Assembly: GCA_031261015.1 (NCBI GenBank)
Contig: JAISKG010000180.1
Span: forward strand, 1 to 10,697
Reading direction: 5' to 3'
Length of the DNA: 10,697 nucleotides
Origin: Dysgonamonadaceae bacterium
Lineage (GTDB): Bacteria; Bacteroidota; Bacteroidia; Bacteroidales; Azobacteroidaceae
The position numbers and the translations under genes were made by a program. This document shows positions 1 through 10,697 of the stretch, one piece after another. How positions within the stretch are numbered: position 1 is the stretch's first letter; each line of letters begins with the position of its first letter. Under the pieces are notes generated by a model. It did not search any database. It saw nothing but the letters and a program-made list of their open reading frames with translations, and was not told where the DNA came from.

Positions 1-1241
1 AAGGAAAAATGGCGCAAAGAATCCAGTTTTTGAAATACCGTTATGCGCGCAAGATTTTGCATTTTACTTATCGCGATCCCTATAAACACGGGAAAGGAGT
101 GAATGCTTTGATTCCCTTGCTTTGCCACCGGTTTTTCACGATAGAATCCGCACAACAACTTGTCCGAAAAGTTCTTACACGATACGACTTCGATGCAAGT
201 TCGCTCGTTGCCGATTACGACGACCGTTCGCGCAGCATGATCTTGGAAAAAAGCATTTTCGGCGAGCCTACCCCCATTCTTTTTGAGGGTAAAACCGTTT
301 ACGGCGTCGCAAAACCCGACATTTACCTGACACGTAAATACGGAAACTACAAGCAGATACCCGATCCGAAAAAACAAAAACAACATAATTTTTATCTCTT
401 GGAACTGAATAAGCCTTACCGGGAATATCAAGATTATATTCGCCCGTTGCAACTTCGTCTTTTGAATATATTGACCACGTTTGATCAAGTTTGCCGGGAA
501 CGCGGTTTACGTTATTACCTCATGGCCGGCACTTTGCTCGGAGCCGTTCGCCATCAAGGCTTTATCCCTTGGGACGACGACATCGACGTAGGAATGCCCC
601 GCGCCGATTACAATTTACTCATTGCTCACGCTCAAGAATGGCTGCCTCAAAATTACGAGATGGTTTGTGCGGAAAACACGCCGGCCTATCCTTTCCCTTT
701 TGCAAAAATGCAGGATGCAGAAACCACTTTTATTGAACGTCGAGGATTTAAACACGTCGGCGGAATTTATGTCGATGTATTTCCATTGGACGGCGTTCCG
801 TCGGGAAAAATCGCTCGGAAACGGCAATTTTTTCAATACAAATTCTGGACAAAAATACTGTATTTTACTTGTCGCGATCCGCATAAGCATGGTCATGATA
901 CAAGTTCATTAATTCCACTTTTATGTCGTAAATTATTCACTCCTGCAGCTATACAAAAAAGGATCCGGAAAATTCTGACGCGTTATTCTTTCGATCAAAG
1001 TGTTCTTATTGCCGATTATGACGATGGTATCAAAGGTGTGATGGATAAAAAAATTCTCGGAAACGCTACGCCTTTGTCATTTGAAGGCAAACAACTCTTG
1101 GGTATTGAAAAATACGATGAATATCTTACACAAAAATACGGCGATTACATGCAGATTCCGGAGCAAGGGAAGCAGCGGCAGCACGGCTTCTATTATTTGA
1201 GCTTGGGAAAACCGTATCGGGAGTATAAAGGTAAAGGGTAA
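1..1241 (+). CDS. LicD-family phosphotransferase, tandem-domain fusion, 5' end outside window
   Basis: LicD-family proteins are nucleotidyltransferase-fold enzymes that transfer phosphocholine or other phospho-substituents to surface glycans. Counting from the ATG at 9, residues ~140-410 form a complete LicD unit: the GTLLGAVRH motif follows M172, and WDDDID (188-193) carries the expected metal-binding acidic residues. Residues 1-~138 match the C-terminal half of that same unit at about half of 144 positions (RDPxKHG, IPLLC, LTRYxFD, ADYDD, LTxKYGxY and KPYREY occur in both). The ATG at 9 is probably not the start: the preceding in-frame codons GGA AAA plus ATG GCG read GKMA, which aligns with GKIA in the second copy, and the frame is open to base 1. 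The gene therefore probably encodes two fused LicD units, with the first catalytic half upstream of the window. It ends at TAA 1239-1241, 18 bases from the convergent lipoprotein gene. Phosphocholine as the substrate is not established; surface-glycan modification is inferred from the family. Confidence 0.85.
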   Translation, partial: GKMAQRIQFLKYRYARKILHFTYRDPYKHGKGVNALIPLLCHRFFTIESAQQLVRKVLTRYDFDASSLVADYDDRSRSMILEKSIFGEPTPILFEGKTVYGVAKPDIYLTRKYGNYKQIPDPKKQKQHNFYLLELNKPYREYQDYIRPLQLRLLNILTTFDQVCRERGLRYYLMAGTLLGAVRHQGFIPWDDDIDVGMPRADYNLLIAHAQEWLPQNYEMVCAENTPAYPFPFAKMQDAETTFIERRGFKHVGGIYVDVFPLDGVPSGKIARKRQFFQYKFWTKILYFTCRDPHKHGHDTSSLIPLLCRKLFTPAAIQKRIRKILTRYSFDQSVLIADYDDGIKGVMDKKILGNATPLSFEGKQLLGIEKYDEYLTQKYGDYMQIPEQGKQRQHGFYYLSLGKPYREYKGKG

Positions 1242-2102: not shown

Positions 2103-2107
2103 TTCAG

Positions 2108-2191
2108 TACCCAGAGCCGGGGTCGAACCGGCATGGAAGTGAATCCACTGGTGTTTGAGACCAGCGCGTCTACCGATTCCGCCATCTGGGC
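2108..2191 (-). tRNA. tRNA-Leu (anticodon CAA)
   Basis: The minus strand folds into a class II cloverleaf of 84 nt. The acceptor stem pairs GCCCAGA with TCTGGGT (first pair G-U), the D-arm contains GGCGGAATCGGTAGACGC, the anticodon stem CTGGT/ACCAG encloses loop CTCAAAC with anticodon CAA, a long variable arm follows, and the T-arm is GCCGG-TTCGACC-CCGGC. The discriminator base is A, as expected for leucine. The 3' CCA is not encoded and must be added after transcription. It reads UUG codons. Confidence 0.96.
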
Positions 2192-2209: not shown

Positions 2210-2240
2210 CAAAGGTAGAAAAACTTTTGAATATAGCAAA
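2210..2240 (-). promoter_or_regulatory. Promoter of tRNA-Leu
   Basis: On the minus strand TTTG (2237-2240) is followed by exactly 19 bases and then TACCTTTG (2210-2217), a full match to the Bacteroidetes primary sigma consensus TTTG-N19-TAnnTTTG. Transcription would start about 12 bases before the mature tRNA 5' end. Confidence 0.8.
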
Positions 2241-2260
2241 TGACTTGTTATCTTTTTTAT

Positions 2261-2268
2261 TACATTTG
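2261..2268 (+). promoter_or_regulatory. Candidate -7 box for aroB
   Basis: TACATTTG matches TAnnTTTG and lies 19 bases before the aroB ATG at 2288. No TTTG is seen at the usual -33 distance, so only half of the promoter is supported. It sits back to back with the tRNA promoter on the other strand. Confidence 0.5.
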
Positions 2269-2287
2269 CCGGATAAATTTTCAAAAC

Positions 2288-3385
2288 ATGAAACAGCAAA
2301 TTATTCGTTGCAGCAACATAATCAATGATTTAAGCGATCTATTACGCTCGTTGAACTACGACGGTTTATTTCTCCTGACCGACCATCATACGCAAAAATT
2401 TTGTTTGCCGCTCGTTGAGGCCATCTCCGAAATTCAATCAGCATGGAAATTTTCCATCCCGGCAGGCGACGAAAACAAAACGATGCAAACGCTTTCCCAA
2501 GTGTGGAAATTCCTTTCGGATAACGGCGCCAACCGGAAGTCGTTGCTTATCAACCTCGGCGGCGGAATGTTGACCGACTTGGGCGGATTCGCTGCCGCAA
2601 CTTTCAAACGGGGCATCCGGTTTATCAACATTCCTACAACGCTTCTGGGTGCGGTGGATGCGGCCGTCGGTGGAAAAACGGGCATCAATTTCAATGGTTT
2701 GAAAAACGAAATCGGAGCGTTTGCACCGGCGATTGCGGTATTGATCGATTCCTATTTTTTCAAAACATTAGATAGAACGAATTTATTATCCGGTTATGCG
2801 GAAATGTTGAAACATGCCTTACTAACCTCTCCCCAACCCTCCCCACAAGGGAAGGAGCTTGCCCCCTCTTGTGGAGAGGGATGGGAGGAGGTCATACGTT
2901 TTGATTTTGAAAAAATAAATTATACCCGATTGAATCATCTTTTATTCGAATCGGTCTTGGTCAAAGAACGAATCGTCGAAAAAGATCCCACCGAACAGGG
3001 AATACGCAAAGCGCTAAACCTCGGCCATACTTTCGGACATGCTTTCGAAAGCCTTTCTTACGAATTGCAACGCCCTGTGCCGCACGGTTATGCCGTCGCT
3101 TGGGGACTCGTTTGCGAATTATACCTTTCGTTCGTTAAACTCGGATTCGATAAAGAAATTTTATCGCGCATCATTCGTTTTGTGAAAGAAAATTACGGCA
3201 GCTTCGCTTTCGATTGTAATCAATACGAGCAAATCTTCGCTTTCATGCAACATGACAAGAAAAACGAATCGAAAGACGTCAATTTTACTTTACTGAAAGC
3301 CGCCGGCGAAATCGAAATCAACCAAACGGCTGATAAAAAGGAAATTGAAGAAACCTTGGATTTTTACCGAGATTTTTTCGATTAA
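2288..3385 (+). CDS. aroB: 3-dehydroquinate synthase
   Basis: The enzyme converts DAHP to 3-dehydroquinate, the second step of the shikimate pathway to aromatic amino acids, in the cytoplasm with NAD+ and a divalent metal. Family marks are all present: the NAD-binding GGG (91-93) and MLTDLGGF, the IPTTLLGAVDAAVGGKTGIN segment, and the metal ligands E172 (GYAEMLKH), H247 (NLGHTFGH) and H266 (PHGYAVAWG). ATG 2288 is chosen because MKQQIIRC starts the usual N-terminal region; an earlier in-frame ATG at 2240 would start upstream of the candidate promoter. The protein has 365 residues. Residues ~181-198 (S-P-Q-P-S-P-Q-G and onward to G-E-G) do not look like AroB and are encoded by an imperfect inverted repeat; the normal sequence resumes at W199. 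All catalytic residues are kept, so the enzyme is probably active. The gene ends 3 bases from the convergent EEP gene. Confidence 0.96.
   Translation: MKQQIIRCSNIINDLSDLLRSLNYDGLFLLTDHHTQKFCLPLVEAISEIQSAWKFSIPAGDENKTMQTLSQVWKFLSDNGANRKSLLINLGGGMLTDLGGFAAATFKRGIRFINIPTTLLGAVDAAVGGKTGINFNGLKNEIGAFAPAIAVLIDSYFFKTLDRTNLLSGYAEMLKHALLTSPQPSPQGKELAPSCGEGWEEVIRFDFEKINYTRLNHLLFESVLVKERIVEKDPTEQGIRKALNLGHTFGHAFESLSYELQRPVPHGYAVAWGLVCELYLSFVKLGFDKEILSRIIRFVKENYGSFAFDCNQYEQIFAFMQHDKKNESKDVNFTLLKAAGEIEINQTADKKEIEETLDFYRDFFD
2826..2891 (+). repeat. Palindromic REP-like element inserted in frame in aroB
   Basis: Two 26-base arms (2826-2851 and 2866-2891) are inverted copies of each other at about 21 of 26 positions, around a 14-base centre. 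The arms are C-rich then G-rich, unlike the surrounding gene. Read through, the element encodes Pro/Gly/Ser-rich peptide of about 18 residues in AroB just after helix residues containing the metal ligand E172. Its form is that of dispersed palindromic repeats able to insert in frame in proteins; whether other copies exist in this genome cannot be seen here. Confidence 0.75.
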
Positions 3386-3388
3386 CCC

Positions 3389-4438
3389 TTACTCTCCATT
3401 ATTATAATACTTCACCAAATACACCACCACCGGAAAATGGTCGCTATACCCATTCAAAAAAACATCGCCGCTGTGCGTGCGCAACGGATAGCCTTTGTAC
3501 CGCCCGGTCTGCTCCGTCAAAAAATCAGCATTAAAAATTTCAACTTTCCAGTATTTTAAAGTGGAGTGGTCGTTGCCGAGCAGATTACCGGAAAGCATGA
3601 TTTGATCAAACAAGTTCCAGCCACCGTTGTAAGCCAGCGAACCGATACCTTTGGCAAACAATTCGGCCATCGGATTGAAGATGCCAAACTCACCGACGTC
3701 GTTTTTCTTGCGCTTGGCATTCAATACTTTGCTCACGCTCGCGTTGGTCGGATCGTCGTTCAAGTCGCCCATGATGAAAATCTTGGCGTCGGGATCGGCA
3801 GCCATGATAGAATCGGTGATATGCTTCGTCAACGTAGCAGCAGCCACACGAAGATAACGGGAAGCTTGCTCGCCGCCACGCCGCGACGGCCAGTGATTCA
3901 CAATCACATTCACCCGCTCGCCGTCCAGCAATCCCGACACAAGTAATTGATCGCGCGACCGGAACTTCGGATTATCGGCCAACCTGAAAAGGTAGGGTTT
4001 GCTTGATGTTACCGTGAAAAACGCCGGATTATACAGCAACGCGACGTCCACCCCGCGCGCATCGGGCGAATCGTAATGGACAATCCCCAAATTCCGGCTC
4101 GCCAGATTCGGATTTTTCACCAAATCTTCCAGTACTGTGCGGTTTTCCACTTCCGATACGCCAATAAAAGCCGGCCCCAGCGGACAGGTTTCTTTCGCCA
4201 ACTGACTAATCGCGTAGGCCATATTATTGATTTTCTTCCAATATTTATCGCTGTTCCATTTCTTCGTTCCCTGCGGAGAATATTCCAGATCGTATTGCGA
4301 ATTATTGTTGATCGTATCGAAAAGATTTTCCAAATTGTAGAACGCTACGGAATAAGGAACTAACTTTTTGCCTTGTCCGCACATAACCGACGGAACCATA
4401 AGCAATAACACTGCTAAAAGATTTAATAACTTTTTCAT
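3389..4438 (-). CDS. Secreted endonuclease/exonuclease/phosphatase (EEP) family hydrolase
   Basis: EEP-fold enzymes (DNase I/exonuclease III/inositol phosphatase-like) cleave phosphodiester or phosphomonoester bonds with a divalent metal. The 349-residue protein shows the family motifs in order: FYNLENLF (33-40, Asn metal site), SEVEN (95-99, metal Glu), VNHWPSR (180-186, His182), GDLNDDP (224-230, Asp225/Asn227) and YSDHFPV (331-337, Asp333-His334 catalytic pair). All key residues are present, so it should be active. Residues 1-19 form a signal peptide; Cys20 after V-M is a poor lipobox, so a soluble periplasmic or exported protein is more likely than a lipoprotein. Its substrate (DNA, RNA, nucleotide, lipid headgroup or sugar phosphate) cannot be read from the sequence. 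It diverges from the TonB receptor operon across a shared 182-base control region, suggesting related function, and converges on aroB with 3 bases between stop codons. Confidence 0.88.
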   Translation of the reverse strand: MKKLLNLLAVLLLMVPSVMCGQGKKLVPYSVAFYNLENLFDTINNNSQYDLEYSPQGTKKWNSDKYWKKINNMAYAISQLAKETCPLGPAFIGVSEVENRTVLEDLVKNPNLASRNLGIVHYDSPDARGVDVALLYNPAFFTVTSSKPYLFRLADNPKFRSRDQLLVSGLLDGERVNVIVNHWPSRRGGEQASRYLRVAAATLTKHITDSIMAADPDAKIFIMGDLNDDPTNASVSKVLNAKRKKNDVGEFGIFNPMAELFAKGIGSLAYNGGWNLFDQIMLSGNLLGNDHSTLKYWKVEIFNADFLTEQTGRYKGYPLRTHSGDVFLNGYSDHFPVVVYLVKYYNNGE

Positions 4439-4468
4439 AATGTCAAAACAATTTAAAGATTGATGCTA

Positions 4469-4476
4469 CAAATATA
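4469..4476 (-). promoter_or_regulatory. Candidate -7 box for the EEP gene
   Basis: The minus strand reads TATATTTG, a TAnnTTTG match, about 30 bases upstream of the EEP ATG at 4438. No TTTG is found at -33, so the call rests on the -7 box and position. Confidence 0.45.
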
Positions 4477-4493
4477 GTTCATATCTTTGAATT

Positions 4494-4525
4494 TTTGTTT
4501 AATTCGGAAACTTTCCTTACATTTG
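4494..4525 (+). promoter_or_regulatory. Candidate promoter P1 of the TonB-receptor operon
   Basis: TTTG (4494-4497) is followed by 20 bases and TACATTTG (4518-4525), close to the consensus spacing of 19. The implied leader is close to 90 bases. The -7 box overlaps the left arm of a perfect inverted repeat, so transcription from here could be blocked or assisted by a bound regulator. Confidence 0.55.
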
Positions 4526-4539
4526 TAACAGAAATGTAA
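4506..4539. promoter_or_regulatory. Operator-like palindromes in the divergent control region
   Basis: TTACATTT (4517-4524) and AAATGTAA (4532-4539) form a perfect 8-bp inverted repeat with a 7-base spacer, directly preceded by a second small palindrome GGAAA-C-TTTCC (4506-4516). No T-tract follows, so it is not a terminator. AAATGT recurs at 4559-4564. The placement over candidate promoter P1 suggests a binding site for a dimeric regulator; I cannot name the regulator. Confidence 0.45.
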
Positions 4540-4572
4540 CCATTCGTTCATGGGAATGAAATGTTCCGTTTC

Positions 4573-4580
4573 TACTTTTG
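4573..4580 (+). promoter_or_regulatory. Candidate promoter P2 (-7 box) of the TonB-receptor operon
   Basis: TACTTTTG matches TAnnTTTG and lies 40 bases before the receptor ATG, which is a usual leader length. No TTTG is seen at the -33 distance. It is an alternative, or an addition, to P1. Confidence 0.45.
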
Positions 4581-4620
4581 TTGCGGAAAGAATTAATACT
4601 AAATAATTAGCGTGTGTTTC

Positions 4621-7164
4621 ATGAAAAAAATCTACATTCCTCTTGTACTTCTCTTATGTTGTATAACGGCAAAAGCCCAAGAACCAGCGGATTCGGTCCC
4701 CTCGTTCTCGAAAAACAGAATAGAGAATGTGTTCATCTTCTTAGATGAAGAAACCTTTGGGGAGGATTCCGAGCAGGGCGATTTCAACGTTTCGTCGCTG
4801 ATGACTTCCTCCAACGACATTTACTTGTCGAACAGTAATTACAATTTTTCCGCCGTGCGCTTCAAGGTGCGGGGTTACGACAACCGCTACTCCGACGTGT
4901 TCATCAACGGAATCAATTTCAACGATGCCGAACGCGGCGGTTTCAGCTACGGAATGATTGGCGGCCTAAACGATGCAACCCGTAATCAGGATGTCATCAA
5001 CGCCACTTCGCCTTCGCGCTTCAATTTCGGACAGATCGGCGGAAGTTCCAACATCAGTACGTGGGCAAGCGGTTACAGTCCCGGATCCAAAGTAGGCGTC
5101 GCTTACACCAACCGCAATTACAAATTGCGCGGAACCGCCATGTATTCGACCGGCGTGATGGACAATGGCTGGGCGCTGTCGGGCATGCTGGCTTACCGCT
5201 GGGCCGACCAAGGTTTCATCAAAGGAACGTTTTACAACAGTCTCGGAGCCTTCTTTTCCGCCGAAAAAATCCTGAACGACAAAAACAATCTTTCGTTCAC
5301 CTTCTTCGTCGCTCCTACCCAACGGGGACAAGCTTCGGCTACCACAGAGGAAATTGCCGATTTGCTCGACGACCATTATTACAACTCCAATTGGGGCTAT
5401 CAAAATGGGAAAGTGCGCAATTCGAGAATTGTTACAACCTGGGAGCCGACTTTTATTGCCTCGCATCTCTGGAAAATCAGCAACAATACGCAATTGCAAA
5501 CCGGTATAGGTACGAAATATAAAAGATATGGAAGTACGGCGATCGAATACGCCAGCGCCAACAATCCACGACCGGACTATTACAAGAATCTTCCGAGCTA
5601 CCACACTGGGGAAGCACGAGAAAAAGCTCAGCAAGACTGGTTAAATGATATTAACTATCGCCAAGTCAATTGGGACGGCATTTACGATCAAAATAGAACT
5701 CCTCAAGCCAAAAAAAACGGAGGCGTTTATACTTTGGGAGAACGCATGAACAATCAACTCAATGCAACGCTCAATTCCACGTTGACCACGAAGCTCAACC
5801 GGAATATTACGATGATGGCTGGAGTAGAAGCTCGCTATACCAAAGGGATGCACTACGAAACCATTGCCGACTTGCTGGGCGCCTCTTATTTTTTGAATGA
5901 AAATTCTTTTGCTAGAACCGACATTAAACTCGCAGATAATCCTTACGCTGCTTTTTACGACCTGAATAATCCGAATACAAAAGCAGTGAAAGGCGATCGT
6001 ATCCGTTACGATTACGACATTCATGTGCGCGACGCCAATGTTTGGGTTCAAAACGAGCACCGTTATGCCAAATGGGATGTTTACTATGGTTTCAAGTTTG
6101 GTTACAACGATTTTTACCGCTACGGAAATATGCGCAACGGCTTAGCTCTTGATAATTCCTATGGCAAAGGCAAACTGCATTCATTTGTTGAGCAAAGCAC
6201 GAAATTCGGATTGACTTATAAACTTTCCGGCCGGCACATGTTCTCCGGAAATGTCAGTTATTCGATACTTCCACCGCTGGCCGACAATGCCTATATTTCT
6301 TCGCGCGTGAAAGACGACGCTGTCGCCGACCTGAAAGACGAAAAAGTTTTCTCGGCCAATGTCAATTATACGATCGCTACTCCTGTAGTAAAAGGACGGG
6401 TTACCGCTTTCCAAACCAATTTCTACGATCAAGCCGAATTATACCATTATTTTGATGACGGCAACCATACTTTTTCCAATTTGTCGTTATCGGGAATCAA
6501 TAAAATACATCGAGGCGTGGAATTGGGTTTAGAAGCAGCTGTTACCTCAGCGCTTAAGCTTTCGTTCATCGGTACTATGGCGGAATATTTTTACAACAAT
6601 CGTCCGACCGGAACATGGAGTTCCGAAAACGGAGCTTTCCCCGATAGAACGGACACTTATTATCTGAAGAATTTCTATGAAAGCGGAACACCGCAAACTG
6701 CCGGCTCGTTTGGAGTCCATTATTTTTATAACTACTGGTTCTTCGATGCTACTTTTAATGCTTTCGACCGTACATACATTGATATTTCTCCAATCAGAAG
6801 AAGAGAAGACGCACTTGGTGAGCTTCTATCGCACTTGATTGACGAAGCGAGGAACGAGATTCCTCCGAGAGATGAAGTGACTCTCAAGGAAGTAGAGGCT
6901 AAAGTAGATGAAATTATCCCTCAGGAAAAATTTGCCGGAGGCTATACCATTGATTTTTCTATTGGTAAGTCGCTTATTCTCAAACGGAAATATCGTTTGA
7001 ACATCAACATGCAATTCAATAACATATTGAATAACATCAACTTGAAGACAAACGGATATGAATACGCCCGTTTCGACTTCGCAACTCAAGCTGTAAAAGT
7101 ACCCTCTTTCTATTATTACGCTCAAGGATTCAATTGTTTCCTGACGGCAAACTTCAGATTTTAA
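4621..7164 (+). CDS. TonB-dependent outer-membrane receptor
   Basis: An 847-residue outer-membrane transporter driven by TonB-ExbBD that would import a large or scarce ligand. Residues 1-19 are a signal peptide with A-K-A cleavage before Q20. Residues ~56-150 form the plug, with VRGYDNRYSDVFINGINF (83-100) and GQIGGSSNIST (137-147) as typical plug motifs. The rest is rich in alternating aromatic beta strands and ends in Phe (FLTANFRF), the usual C-terminal signal of outer-membrane barrels. There is no N-terminal carboxypeptidase-regulatory-like domain and no SusD gene beside it, so it is not a standard SusC. A charged, probably helical stretch at ~724-770 interrupts the late barrel strands and may be an extracellular loop. 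ATG 4621 is preferred to GTG 4612 because MKK starts the signal peptide. The next gene follows after 29 bases, in the same probable operon. The ligand is unknown. Confidence 0.88.
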   Translation: MKKIYIPLVLLLCCITAKAQEPADSVPSFSKNRIENVFIFLDEETFGEDSEQGDFNVSSLMTSSNDIYLSNSNYNFSAVRFKVRGYDNRYSDVFINGINFNDAERGGFSYGMIGGLNDATRNQDVINATSPSRFNFGQIGGSSNISTWASGYSPGSKVGVAYTNRNYKLRGTAMYSTGVMDNGWALSGMLAYRWADQGFIKGTFYNSLGAFFSAEKILNDKNNLSFTFFVAPTQRGQASATTEEIADLLDDHYYNSNWGYQNGKVRNSRIVTTWEPTFIASHLWKISNNTQLQTGIGTKYKRYGSTAIEYASANNPRPDYYKNLPSYHTGEAREKAQQDWLNDINYRQVNWDGIYDQNRTPQAKKNGGVYTLGERMNNQLNATLNSTLTTKLNRNITMMAGVEARYTKGMHYETIADLLGASYFLNENSFARTDIKLADNPYAAFYDLNNPNTKAVKGDRIRYDYDIHVRDANVWVQNEHRYAKWDVYYGFKFGYNDFYRYGNMRNGLALDNSYGKGKLHSFVEQSTKFGLTYKLSGRHMFSGNVSYSILPPLADNAYISSRVKDDAVADLKDEKVFSANVNYTIATPVVKGRVTAFQTNFYDQAELYHYFDDGNHTFSNLSLSGINKIHRGVELGLEAAVTSALKLSFIGTMAEYFYNNRPTGTWSSENGAFPDRTDTYYLKNFYESGTPQTAGSFGVHYFYNYWFFDATFNAFDRTYIDISPIRRREDALGELLSHLIDEARNEIPPRDEVTLKEVEAKVDEIIPQEKFAGGYTIDFSIGKSLILKRKYRLNINMQFNNILNNINLKTNGYEYARFDFATQAVKVPSFYYYAQGFNCFLTANFRF

Positions 7165-7193
7165 TAAATAATAAACAAAAAAAATACAAGAAT

Positions 7194-9269
7194 ATGAAAA
7201 CATTAAAAGGACTATTCGCATTATTGATTCTCTGTTGCACTTTTTTCGCATGCGACCAAAGAGAATTTGATGTTCCTCCCTACGAAAAGCCGGTGGAATT
7301 TACAGGCAAAGCCAATTTGACCATCAAAGAATTTATCGAAAAATATCAGGCAGTAGAAGATACATTGAAGGTAACGGCTAATGATACGATCGAAGGTTAT
7401 GTGATTGCTAACGATGTTTCGGGAAATATCTATAAACAATTGGTTATTCGAGACGAAACAAGTGCATTGATCATCAACATTGATCAAACTAACATGAAGA
7501 ACCTCTTTCCCGTAGGACAAAAAATCATCATCGAATGTAAAGGCTTTTATGTAGGCCGCACCTATGGAATGTTTCAAATGGGCGGCTACTACAAAAGTGG
7601 CAACTACAACTCAATTGGCCGTATAGAGTGGCCGCTTGTTAAAGATAAAATTCACCTTTCGGGCGAACCTGATCCCGATATTGCGATTTGCCAGCCGCAA
7701 GTGGTCACAGCAAGCAGCTATGCCGACTTGTCGAATGCAGTGAACGTAGGAAAACTTTATAAATTGGAAGGCGTAGTCTGGGCTGATGGCGGTAAAAAAA
7801 TATTTGCCGCAGAGGCCGAAGTTTCCGGAGGTGCAGTGGACCGTGTCGTTTCTTTTAAGACCGATAATAGTAAAACAGTGACCGTAAGAAACAGTATTTA
7901 TTCCGATTTTGCAAGTAAAATGGTGCCCGAAGGAACCGGCGATGTAGTCGGTATCCTCACTCACTACAACGGCAAACCTCAATTCCTGATCCGCTCGCTC
8001 GATGACGTACAAGGTTTCTCCAGCAGCACGCCCGACGGAAGCAAAGACAATCCCTGGGATGTTACGTATGCAATCGGCCACCAAGACGGCGAAACCGAAG
8101 GCTGGATCAAAGGCTATATCGTAGGAACGGTTGCCGCCGGCGTAAGCGAAATCAAAGCGAACAGCGACCTCGTGTTTACCGCTCCGTTTGACGTGCCGAA
8201 TTACGTAGTGATTGCCGCAAGCGCGAACGAAAGAGATTGGACAAAATGTGTTGTTGTGAACTTACCGGCAGGTTCGGCCATCCGCACCGACGTGAACCTG
8301 CCCGATCATGCCGATAATGTAGGCAAATCATTGGCCGTTAAAGGAATCTTGAAAAAAGCGCCGCTGGGTGCTGCCGGATTAAGCGTAGCAACCGGAGCTG
8401 CCGCCGACTTTATACTGGGCCCCGGCGGAAGCGTTAATCCGGGAGGAGGCGACGGAACGGAAAACAATCCTTATTCCGCCGATCAGGTAGTAGCTATGGG
8501 CAAAGGCGTGAATGTAACCAATGTCTGGGTAAAAGGCTACATCGTAGGATGCGTACCCGATCAATACCTTGCGAACGCAGTCTTCACCGCTCCTTTCTCT
8601 TCACAAGCCAATATTCTGATTGCTTCTTCTGCAAGCGAAACCACTGCAACGAACTGCGTACCTGTTCAATTGGTAACGGGAACTATCCGAACCGCATTGA
8701 ACCTTTCCGCCAATCCGGGAAACAAAGGCAAAGAAGTCCTCTTGAATTGCGATTTGATTGCCTACTTCGGAGTGGCCGGTATTAAGAATATCGTTTCTTA
8801 CAAATTGAACGGAGAAGGTCCGGTTGACCCGCCCGTTGATCCTCCCGTTGACCCGGGCACCGGCGACGGACAGTCTGCTGCAACCGCTTATTCCGTTGCG
8901 GCGGCGATTGCCAACCAGGGCGGTTCGACAAGCACTACACAAACATGGACAACCGGTTACATTGTCGGTTGCGTGAAAAGTGGAAAGACCTCAGTAGCTT
9001 CTGCCGATGATGTATGGCTTGGCGTGACTTCCGGTTGGGACTTGGCTACCAATGTCATTATTGCCGATTCGAAAACAGAAACGGACATCAACAAATGCGT
9101 GATTGTCAACCTTCCGGCAGGGAAACCTTTGCGTACGGAAGTGAATTTGCTCGACAATCCCGGAAACTATCAAAAAACGCTGACGGTGAAAGGCGTATTG
9201 CGCACTTACTTCGGTAAAGCGGGTTTGAGAGATTCGGCCGGCGCAGCGGAAGATTTCATATTGCAATGA
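7194..9269 (+). CDS. Surface lipoprotein with one DUF5689-like and three DUF6359-like domains
   Basis: The 691-residue protein has a lipoprotein signal (1-19) ending in T-F-F-A-C with Cys20, followed by DQREFD, an acidic stretch compatible with surface export in Bacteroidetes. Residues ~40-275 resemble DUF5689 (NLTIKEFIEKY, IEGYVIANDVSGN, QLVIRDETSALIINID). Three repeats then resemble DUF6359: ~283-408, ~420-538 and ~557-690, each with an N-P/A-Y/W start, W-x-x-GYIVG, an xVxIAxSxxE strand, a CVxVxL segment, an I/L-R-T-x-x-N-L helix and a G-x-x-G-L/I end. The linkers are Gly-rich (409-423) and Pro-rich (543-554, PVDPPVDPPVDP). The strand pattern suggests OB-fold-like binding domains; that is inference, and nucleic acid binding is not shown. 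ATG 7194 gives the signal peptide; in-frame codons upstream belong to the receptor overlap. It probably partners the receptor at the cell surface, in the place SusD usually holds. Confidence 0.85.
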   Translation: MKTLKGLFALLILCCTFFACDQREFDVPPYEKPVEFTGKANLTIKEFIEKYQAVEDTLKVTANDTIEGYVIANDVSGNIYKQLVIRDETSALIINIDQTNMKNLFPVGQKIIIECKGFYVGRTYGMFQMGGYYKSGNYNSIGRIEWPLVKDKIHLSGEPDPDIAICQPQVVTASSYADLSNAVNVGKLYKLEGVVWADGGKKIFAAEAEVSGGAVDRVVSFKTDNSKTVTVRNSIYSDFASKMVPEGTGDVVGILTHYNGKPQFLIRSLDDVQGFSSSTPDGSKDNPWDVTYAIGHQDGETEGWIKGYIVGTVAAGVSEIKANSDLVFTAPFDVPNYVVIAASANERDWTKCVVVNLPAGSAIRTDVNLPDHADNVGKSLAVKGILKKAPLGAAGLSVATGAAADFILGPGGSVNPGGGDGTENNPYSADQVVAMGKGVNVTNVWVKGYIVGCVPDQYLANAVFTAPFSSQANILIASSASETTATNCVPVQLVTGTIRTALNLSANPGNKGKEVLLNCDLIAYFGVAGIKNIVSYKLNGEGPVDPPVDPPVDPGTGDGQSAATAYSVAAAIANQGGSTSTTQTWTTGYIVGCVKSGKTSVASADDVWLGVTSGWDLATNVIIADSKTETDINKCVIVNLPAGKPLRTEVNLLDNPGNYQKTLTVKGVLRTYFGKAGLRDSAGAAEDFILQ
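8823..8858 (+). repeat. Three 12-base tandem repeats encoding a Pro-rich linker
   Basis: Three imperfect 12-base units (gttgacccgccc, gttgatcctccc, gttgacccgggc) encode V-D-P-P twice and V-D-P-G, linking the second and third DUF6359-like domains. Such units expand and contract easily, so linker length may vary between strains. Confidence 0.8.
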
Positions 9270-9315
9270 AATTGAAAATTAAAAGAATAGAAATATAACA
9301 TTAAAAAAATCATTT

Positions 9316-10697
9316 ATGAAAAAGTTAATCACCTTAGTAATGTGTCTTTGCGCATTGGGATTTTCGAATCTTCGTGCAGATAATGTTTTTTATGAAACTT
9401 GTGGAACAACAGCGCCTACAAGTGGAACTCGTCCGACTCCCGCCAGTTATCAAGGATGGGATAACCAAGGTCTTGTGGATTTTGACGGAAACGTGGATCT
9501 TCGCGCAACAACTCAATTAAGTAGCCATGTATGGTTTGCTGCCAATAATGACAAAAATTTGACTATTAGCGGCATCAACACTTCCGGCAAATCAAACTTG
9601 AAGCTTTCTTTTAAAGTAGCGTATGGCGCAACCGGCGGAAATGCTAACAAAATGCTTGTAGTTGCCAAAGACCTTGCCGCAGGGGGAAGCGATATTACAA
9701 TCACGGTTCCCGACCAAGCATTAGGAGCTTCGAACGTATATTCCGAAATTAACAACTTGTCCGGAATTCCTGCTACAACGAATCTGCAATTGACATTCAC
9801 CGTACTTGGAGCCACTAATGCCCAAGGTTATCGTTTGGATGACATTTTGATCACTTCGGGAAATGCTCCGATTTTCAGCGACAACAATGATTTGGCAACA
9901 TTGACGGTCAGCACCGGTACATTAGATCCGGAATTTGATCCGGCAATAACCACGTATTCGGTTGTTTTACCGACAGGCACAACGACTGTTCCTTCCGTTC
10001 AATACACTTTGGCAGACGCTACGGCAGCCGCGGTGAAAACCGATGCAACGTCGATTCCCGGTTCTACTACGATCGCAGTAACAGCTGAAAACGGCGACAA
10101 AAAAACCTACACGGTAAATTTCAGTGCAACGCCGCCCGCCGGAGAGTGGATCGAAACTTTTGAAACGGGACCTTCTAAAACCAGTTATACTTATGGCGAA
10201 TATCAAGGAACAGCCGCACTTTGGGGCGCAGCCGCCGTTATCGCCAACAACGACAATTCAGATAAGAAAAACGGGCTTTATTCGGCTCGCCTGAGAGATC
10301 CGCGACCCAATTACGATGCTGCTCATTACATCGAAATGAAACAAGATAAAGGCAATGGAGCCGGCGTAATTTCGCTTTATCACGGTATGTATGGAACGCA
10401 CACGGGCGGAACCTACAAATTGGAAGTTTCCAATAACAGTGGAAGCACTTGGAACGCATTTGTTGCCGAAGTGGAAGAAGTTCCTGCCACATTGACGAAG
10501 ATCTCGTTTACCGCCAATGTGCCGGGCGACATCCGAATCAAGATCACAAAAACCAATAGCGCCAATAATTCTTCGATCAACATCGACGACATTTCGATTA
10601 CCAACTATCCGGGAACAGGCCTATCGCAAATCGGTAATGACCTGAGCGTTTATACGACTAACAGCACGCTCCACATAGTCGGTTACGACGGAAAATC
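9316..10697 (+). CDS. Secreted multi-domain beta-sandwich protein, 3' end outside window
   Basis: The frame is open from ATG 9316 to the last base (460 codons) with no stop. Residues 1-21 are a signal peptide (cleavage L-R-A before D22) without lipobox. Residues ~22-185 look like a jelly-roll beta-sandwich ending in RLDDILI. Residues ~188-275 match the cadherin-like beta-sandwich family (LATLTVSTGTLDPEFDPA, TTYSVVLP, TAENGDKKTYTVNF). Residues 276-~430 form a second jelly-roll-like module (WIETFETGPSKTSYTYG, KNGLYSARLRDPR, INIDDISITN) of the kind often seen in extracellular Bacteroidetes enzymes. From ~440 (LSVYTTNSTLHIVGYDGK) the sequence resembles the start of a type IX secretion C-terminal sorting domain, implying export to the surface and a true end about 70-80 residues beyond the window. 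No enzymatic motif is visible. It follows the lipoprotein gene by 46 bases without terminator, so it is probably the third gene of the operon; an adhesive or ligand-binding role is inferred. Confidence 0.8.
   Translation, partial: MKKLITLVMCLCALGFSNLRADNVFYETCGTTAPTSGTRPTPASYQGWDNQGLVDFDGNVDLRATTQLSSHVWFAANNDKNLTISGINTSGKSNLKLSFKVAYGATGGNANKMLVVAKDLAAGGSDITITVPDQALGASNVYSEINNLSGIPATTNLQLTFTVLGATNAQGYRLDDILITSGNAPIFSDNNDLATLTVSTGTLDPEFDPAITTYSVVLPTGTTTVPSVQYTLADATAAAVKTDATSIPGSTTIAVTAENGDKKTYTVNFSATPPAGEWIETFETGPSKTSYTYGEYQGTAALWGAAAVIANNDNSDKKNGLYSARLRDPRPNYDAAHYIEMKQDKGNGAGVISLYHGMYGTHTGGTYKLEVSNNSGSTWNAFVAEVEEVPATLTKISFTANVPGDIRIKITKTNSANNSSINIDDISITNYPGTGLSQIGNDLSVYTTNSTLHIVGYDGK

Follow-up and report, generated by a model that had tools for sequence, protein, structure and literature searches.

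This study examined a stretch of 10,697 nucleotides from a Dysgonamonadaceae bacterium (GenBank assembly GCA_031261015.1, contig JAISKG010000180.1), referred to here as the window, which runs to the contig end at position 10697 and whose seven proteins were covered by Pfam/NCBIfam-type family scans. A gene for a secreted protein of the endonuclease/exonuclease/phosphatase (EEP) fold is divergent from an operon encoding a TonB-dependent transporter (hereafter the receptor), a lipoprotein and a secreted protein, the last gene being interrupted by the contig end. A first-pass annotation, made from the sequence alone, had described this arrangement, and it is confirmed here. The locus comprises the following features:

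3389..4438, minus strand: secreted EEP-fold nuclease/phosphoesterase (Exo_endo_phos_3), with a signal peptide and intact active-site residues
4439..4611, no strand: divergent intergenic region between the EEP and receptor genes
4469..4476, minus strand: weak TANNTTTG match facing the EEP gene (11 in the window against 9.3 expected)
4494..4525, plus strand: weak promoter-like site of Bacteroidota type, TTTG-N20-TACATTTG, facing the receptor operon
4612..7164, plus strand: TonB-dependent transporter, likely start ATG 4621
7194..9269, plus strand: lipoprotein with DUF5689 (residues 40-272) and three DUF6359 domains, modelled as an OB-fold string
9316..10697, plus strand: secreted protein, 460 residues as far as the contig end

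The pattern TTTG-N20-TACATTTG, which we take to be the Bacteroidota-type promoter consensus, occurs twice in the window where 0.49 matches are expected; at least 2 were obtained in 17 of 200 shuffles, and the signal is weak.

With regard to the receptor, the model shows a plug domain within a beta-barrel, as in TonB-dependent transporters, with residues 14-63 at a predicted local distance difference test (pLDDT) score below 50. The closest folds among the matches listed are FecA, YncD/PqqU, FhuA and BtuB; no SusC-type chain is found among the 50 listed, which rules nothing out. A PDB profile search with the receptor alignment returned only four weak N-terminal matches, the best being an 85-residue 'SusC homolog' chain (E=6e-4). 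The corresponding profile searches with the EEP enzyme and the lipoprotein gave no match, and PDB sequence searches with single window proteins gave nothing meaningful. SusC/SusD glycan uptake likewise pairs a TonB-dependent transporter with a lipoprotein in one Bacteroidota operon. Here, by contrast, no SusD family was detected at E<=0.1 among the seven window proteins, as the first-pass annotation had anticipated, and the partner beside the receptor is an OB-fold string. Bacteroides thetaiotaomicron BtuB with its surface lipoprotein BtuG (PDB 8blw, 8bmx, 8p97, 8p98) has vitamin B12 as its ligand and a lipoprotein fold unlike that of the window. OB-fold barrels are evident in the window lipoprotein model, and its top PDB matches in Foldseek are DNA-binding proteins. 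Within the literature collection searched, no paper mentions DUF6359 and one mentions DUF5689.

The EEP enzyme scores 428 bits against PF19580 (cut-off 27), and the residues which we take to bind metal and to act in catalysis are intact and invariant in the alignment. Like the extracellular nucleases ExeM, NucH and Xds, it is a secreted protein of this fold; in contrast to them, it has a single domain, and it reaches only 24 bits against NF033681 (cut-off 300), the model for ExeM/NucH DNases. According to excerpts of the ExeM study, its DNase activity depends on two parts, an oligonucleotide-binding 'YcgR/YhcR-like' region and the EEP domain, and the domain structure is called highly similar to that of Xds (PMC6085458). 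In the window, the OB folds and the EEP domain are instead encoded by separate neighbouring genes, a parallel that offers one more hint as to the mechanism.

The receptor was then compared across a phylum sample of 296 genomes, the window's own included. Matches at E<=1e-20 were counted in 54 genomes, 46 of them strong (E<=2e-49) and 8 weak, and in two strong genomes (G012, G222) the match was in two pieces; strong relatives also occur in named Sphingobacterium and Bacteroidales records. Leaving the window aside, the strong loci number 45 (L071-L115). In 44 of them a DUF5689 protein is encoded on the receptor's strand, at most two open reading frames (ORFs) downstream, and in 28 an EEP gene lies beside the receptor (26 as immediate divergent neighbour, 2 close on the same strand). 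The first-pass annotation had joined both genes to the receptor and named recurrence across Bacteroidota genomes as its check; the check was run, and its outcome did not contradict the proposal. A strict set of four is not supported, since 17 of the 45 loci have no EEP neighbour and the fourth gene has relatives in a few loci only (L048, L049, L061 and L062). In named-record loci the lipoprotein was present in 12 of 13 and the EEP gene in 2 (both Sphingobacterium); in nearer-relative loci, several of which are cut by contig ends, the figures were 7/10 and 5/10. Neither gene occurs at the four loci with weaker receptor matches (a fifth, L119, was excluded for its overlap with a true locus). DUF5689 matches above 140 bits all adjoin this receptor, except in G017, where the match is on another contig. 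Overall, both families are wider, DUF5689 being present in 135 and the EEP family in 203 of the 296 genomes. In Sphingobacterium, a fimbrillin-like protein (Mfa_like_1, E=3.6e-61) is encoded directly upstream of the receptor in L048 (8206-9633, plus strand), and a related ORF takes the same position in L049.

The receptor-linked EEP forms a group separate from the other EEPs found in the genus. In a midpoint-rooted FastTree tree, read by topology only, the window EEP clusters with EEPs of other receptor loci. Non-linked EEPs are present in 18 of 23 genus genomes, and the 14 compared fall in a separate group, with 32-38% identity to the window EEP. Only four of these 23 genomes (G000, G302, G307, G308) have the linked EEP (E<=7.3e-125); the strong receptor and Endonuclease I are likewise restricted to these four. 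The chance of one such coincidence is 1 in 8855, kinship of the genomes being ignored. In G302 the linked EEP is on a different contig from the receptor. The E-value serves as a marker of the linked EEP inside the genus only, because G331, which has no receptor match, holds an EEP at 5e-118 (L148) which the tree places outside the linked group. No more than a weak receptor match (2.7e-31) occurs in G313, and all three genes are absent from G298 and G317 (99% complete, 1.0 and 1.2 Mb). In a wider genus sample the receptor is found in 5 of 38 genomes, the fifth being G342, where a 42-base tandem repeat (4.1 copies, 97% matches) lies downstream of the lipoprotein gene and continues up to the end of the contig (L156, 5652-5824).

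The product of the fourth gene shares 53% identity over 438 residues with a 760-residue protein, P4, in the same position in G308, where the order is receptor, lipoprotein, P4 and Endonuclease I (L061). In G302 (L062), the receptor is followed by a lipoprotein that combines DUF5689 with a P4-like end, then by a DUF6359/DUF6383 protein and two Endonuclease I genes. The window's own genome holds one Endonuclease I gene, at the broken end of contig C94, which stops inside it; the product is 63% identical to that of the gene after P4 in L061. This is suggestive, though no proof, of a position adjoining the window. In L089, from another family, an Endonuclease I gene (13555-15150, minus strand) lies near the EEP gene of the receptor locus.

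The closest known counterpart is a pair of adjacent Riemerella anatipestifer genes, RA0C_RS04915 and RA0C_RS04920, each essential for natural transformation (PMC8459023). Type IV pili are the route of DNA uptake in well-studied Gram-negative bacteria, but a search for pilus homologs in R. anatipestifer found none; in the authors' speculative model, DNA binds RS04920 and crosses via RS04915, and an unidentified protein performs the double- to single-strand step (PMC8459023). The main text of that paper names no EEP neighbour and uses 'endonuclease' only for restriction enzymes. It is inconsistent on distribution, describing homologs as widespread in Bacteroidetes and the receptor homolog as confined to Flavobacteriaceae, and reports that Flavobacterium johnsoniae possesses all homologs yet was not transformable under the same conditions (PMC8459023). 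Excerpts of a second study show reduced transformation in tonBA and tonBB mutants and under iron limitation (PMC8383284). Among the papers retrieved for these two genes or for M949_1556, PMC8459023 alone uses the RA0C tags, and titles on Riemerella natural transformation from 2022 on included none on these genes.

In both organisms, the gene for an outer-membrane receptor-type protein adjoins that for a DUF5689 protein, which in the window is a lipoprotein encoded downstream. In contrast to the R. anatipestifer locus, the window receptor has no N-terminal carboxypeptidase-regulatory domain in the family scan. This domain is present in most listed receptor relatives, including P0122 (60% identical) and that of L106, and is variable within the genus, being also absent from P0149 of G302. 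The lipoprotein likewise differs, carrying three DUF6359 domains instead of a choice-of-anchor J/DUF5017 end and falling short of model NF052645, and sister operons of the window genus contain Endonuclease I. NF052645 is named after R. anatipestifer M949_1556, which is treated in one review (PMC12566107) and may or may not be the same as RA0C_RS04920. In our judgement the system is of a known kind: it is a variant form of the Bacteroidota transformation locus, set apart by the end of its lipoprotein and, in sister operons, by additional DNases. What is new is the OB-fold string with its matches to DNA binders, the separately grouping linked EEP, Endonuclease I in same-genus operons and the joint presence in the same four of 23 genus genomes.

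Gene content, conservation, predicted folds, the intact EEP active-site residues and the published R. anatipestifer transformation mutants of the same domain type favour reading the locus as a pilus-free module for the capture and import of DNA at the outer membrane, which we consider moderately probable. The lipoprotein, anchored in the outer membrane and presumably exposed at the surface, would grip extracellular DNA via its OB-fold string and hand it to the receptor, which would carry DNA or long oligonucleotides into the periplasm, powered by TonB. The secreted EEP enzyme, joined by Endonuclease I in sister operons, would cleave or trim the DNA, either in advance of uptake or while it proceeds. 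We infer that receptor and lipoprotein are equivalent to RA0C_RS04915 and RA0C_RS04920, that the lipoprotein binds DNA, that DNA passes through the receptor and that the EEP enzyme is a DNase. The imported DNA may serve as food, as genes or as both: the parallel with Vibrio cholerae Dns and Xds points to a feeding role in the genus, and the Riemerella mutants point to the import of DNA in usable form. Regarding the nucleic acid or other phosphate-containing polymer proposed in the first-pass annotation, nucleic acid is the likely ligand, and given the R. anatipestifer genes (PMC8459023) and the Endonuclease I genes of same-genus operons, DNA is a better candidate than some other phosphate polymer, and import has to be considered beside scavenging.

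Several observations weigh against DNA import. OB folds bind sugars and proteins too, and it is the single barrels of the lipoprotein that find matches in Foldseek, not the whole string; tandem alignments have TM-scores of 0.09-0.16 by query and root-mean-square deviations mostly of 7-23. The protein is acidic (isoelectric point 4.9) and has no basic domain. It scores 110 bits against NF052645 (cut-off 475), covering only profile positions 7-275 of 457, and DUF6359 stands where the choice-of-anchor J/DUF5017 end is expected. Four of six tested lipoproteins of related loci also fall below this cut-off, L106 and L115 passing it. Of the 17 loci without a neighbouring EEP gene, 13 belong to one genus (g7); L104, one of the others, stops at a contig edge. 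Among the 45 phylum loci, L089 alone has Endonuclease I nearby; the enzyme was found in 6 of 16 same-order genomes outside the genus, 4 of which have a strong receptor match, and in the two stretches examined (L130, L131) it sits amid unrelated genes. The shortfall of the four lipoproteins and the lack of a tie between Endonuclease I and the receptor outside the genus slightly lower our confidence in DNA import and slightly raise that in two of the rival readings. The presumed kinship with the R. anatipestifer genes draws on domain make-up, gene order and the named model rather than on direct sequence comparison. In the excerpts of PMC8383284, the tonBB effect is put down to iron, and removal of phosphate lowered transformation. 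Since Dns hinders transformation of V. cholerae (PMC3212620, in excerpt), co-secreted DNases would be expected to destroy transforming DNA. Finally, ComEC, present in 288 of the 296 genomes, does not track the locus, and the window's own genome (72% complete) yielded no DprA, although G302, G307 and G308 have it. ComEC was rejected as a tracer because of this near-universal presence, as was the ComEA-like HHH_3 family (292/296), whose listed members are mostly frames of 700-850 residues, presumably Tex-like.

The best-surviving alternative, which we nevertheless regard as rather unlikely, is nutrition only: the EEP enzyme and Endonuclease I would digest extracellular DNA, the lipoprotein would hold it, and the receptor would import short oligonucleotides or nucleotides for phosphate, nitrogen and carbon, transformation in R. 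anatipestifer being a special or secondary use. Same-genus operons with a single Endonuclease I gene (L061) or a pair of them (L062) fit this, as do the patchy distribution in the genus (5 of 38 genomes) and the failure of ComEC and DprA to follow the locus. The genus has the same pair of nuclease types as Dns (Endonuclease I superfamily) and Xds of V. cholerae, which to our knowledge are not linked to a receptor. These two support growth on DNA as a phosphate source (PMC3212620, in excerpt). However, nutrition alone leaves the essentiality of both R. anatipestifer genes for transformation unexplained, Endonuclease I is nearby in just one phylum locus, and no nucleotidase or nucleoside family was found among the seven window proteins.

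An unrelated ligand, such as a metal chelate, a cofactor or a phosphorylated glycan, is a poorer explanation and appears improbable. The closest listed receptor folds, FecA, YncD/PqqU, FhuA and BtuB, would suit it, and an indirect envelope or iron effect could account for the R. anatipestifer defect, as iron limitation and the tonBB mutation both lower transformation (PMC8383284, in excerpt). Nevertheless, a common transporter fold is uninformative on the ligand, and an OB-fold string with linked nucleases would be hard to account for if the locus imported a metal or vitamin. We consider it very improbable that the locus encodes a surface adhesive assembly which holds extracellular DNA for protist attachment or biofilm formation without importing it: some relatives are named Candidatus Symbiothrix, a bristle-like ectosymbiont genus (PMC2717939, in excerpt), and a fimbrillin-like protein adjoins a Sphingobacterium locus, but a TonB-dependent transporter would be pointless and the nucleases would dissolve the adhesive. 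That the genes are chance neighbours with no common function, as the 17 loci without EEP might suggest, is scarcely credible given the receptor-lipoprotein pair in 44 of 45 loci, the separate grouping of the linked EEP and the co-occurrence in 4 of the 23 genus genomes.

The remainder of the window holds four further features:

3-1241, plus strand: LicD-family protein (PF04991, E=1.9e-49), the 5' part cut by the contig start
1260-2036, minus strand: 258-residue protein with a lipoprotein-like N-terminus and no Pfam/NCBIfam family above cut-off
2107-2191, minus strand: tRNA-Leu (caa), between the 258-residue ORF and aroB
2240-3385, plus strand: 3-dehydroquinate synthase (AroB)

By eye, the first part of the LicD-family protein resembles its own C-terminal part, perhaps reflecting two tandem LicD-like units; no direct DNA repeat of at least 30 bases was found. 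The AroB gene holds a short insert-like stretch, LLTSPQPSPQGKELAPSCGEGWEE, which looks like a repeat element within a coding gene, and a search for inverted repeats around it found none. The closest named relatives of the window proteins belong to Candidatus Azobacteroides, Candidatus Symbiothrix and Dysgonamonadaceae. A title cited in PMC2717939 describes Candidatus Symbiothrix dinenymphae as a bristle-like Bacteroidales ectosymbiont of termite-gut protists; given these affinities, the window organism probably originates from a termite gut.

A bolder version of DNA import at this locus, which we put forward tentatively, is a TonB-powered, pilus-independent importer of the Bacteroidota in which the OB-fold string threads DNA into the transporter and the dedicated EEP enzyme performs the strand-processing step which the Riemerella model assigns to an unidentified protein; relatives of termite-protist symbionts would add Endonuclease I and import prey or host DNA as both food and genes. 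If the module does correspond to the outer-membrane route of Riemerella, DNA would be added to what TonB-dependent transporters carry, DNA uptake may be within the reach of many Bacteroidota, and the nuclease linked to the receptor would be a candidate for the missing processing enzyme.
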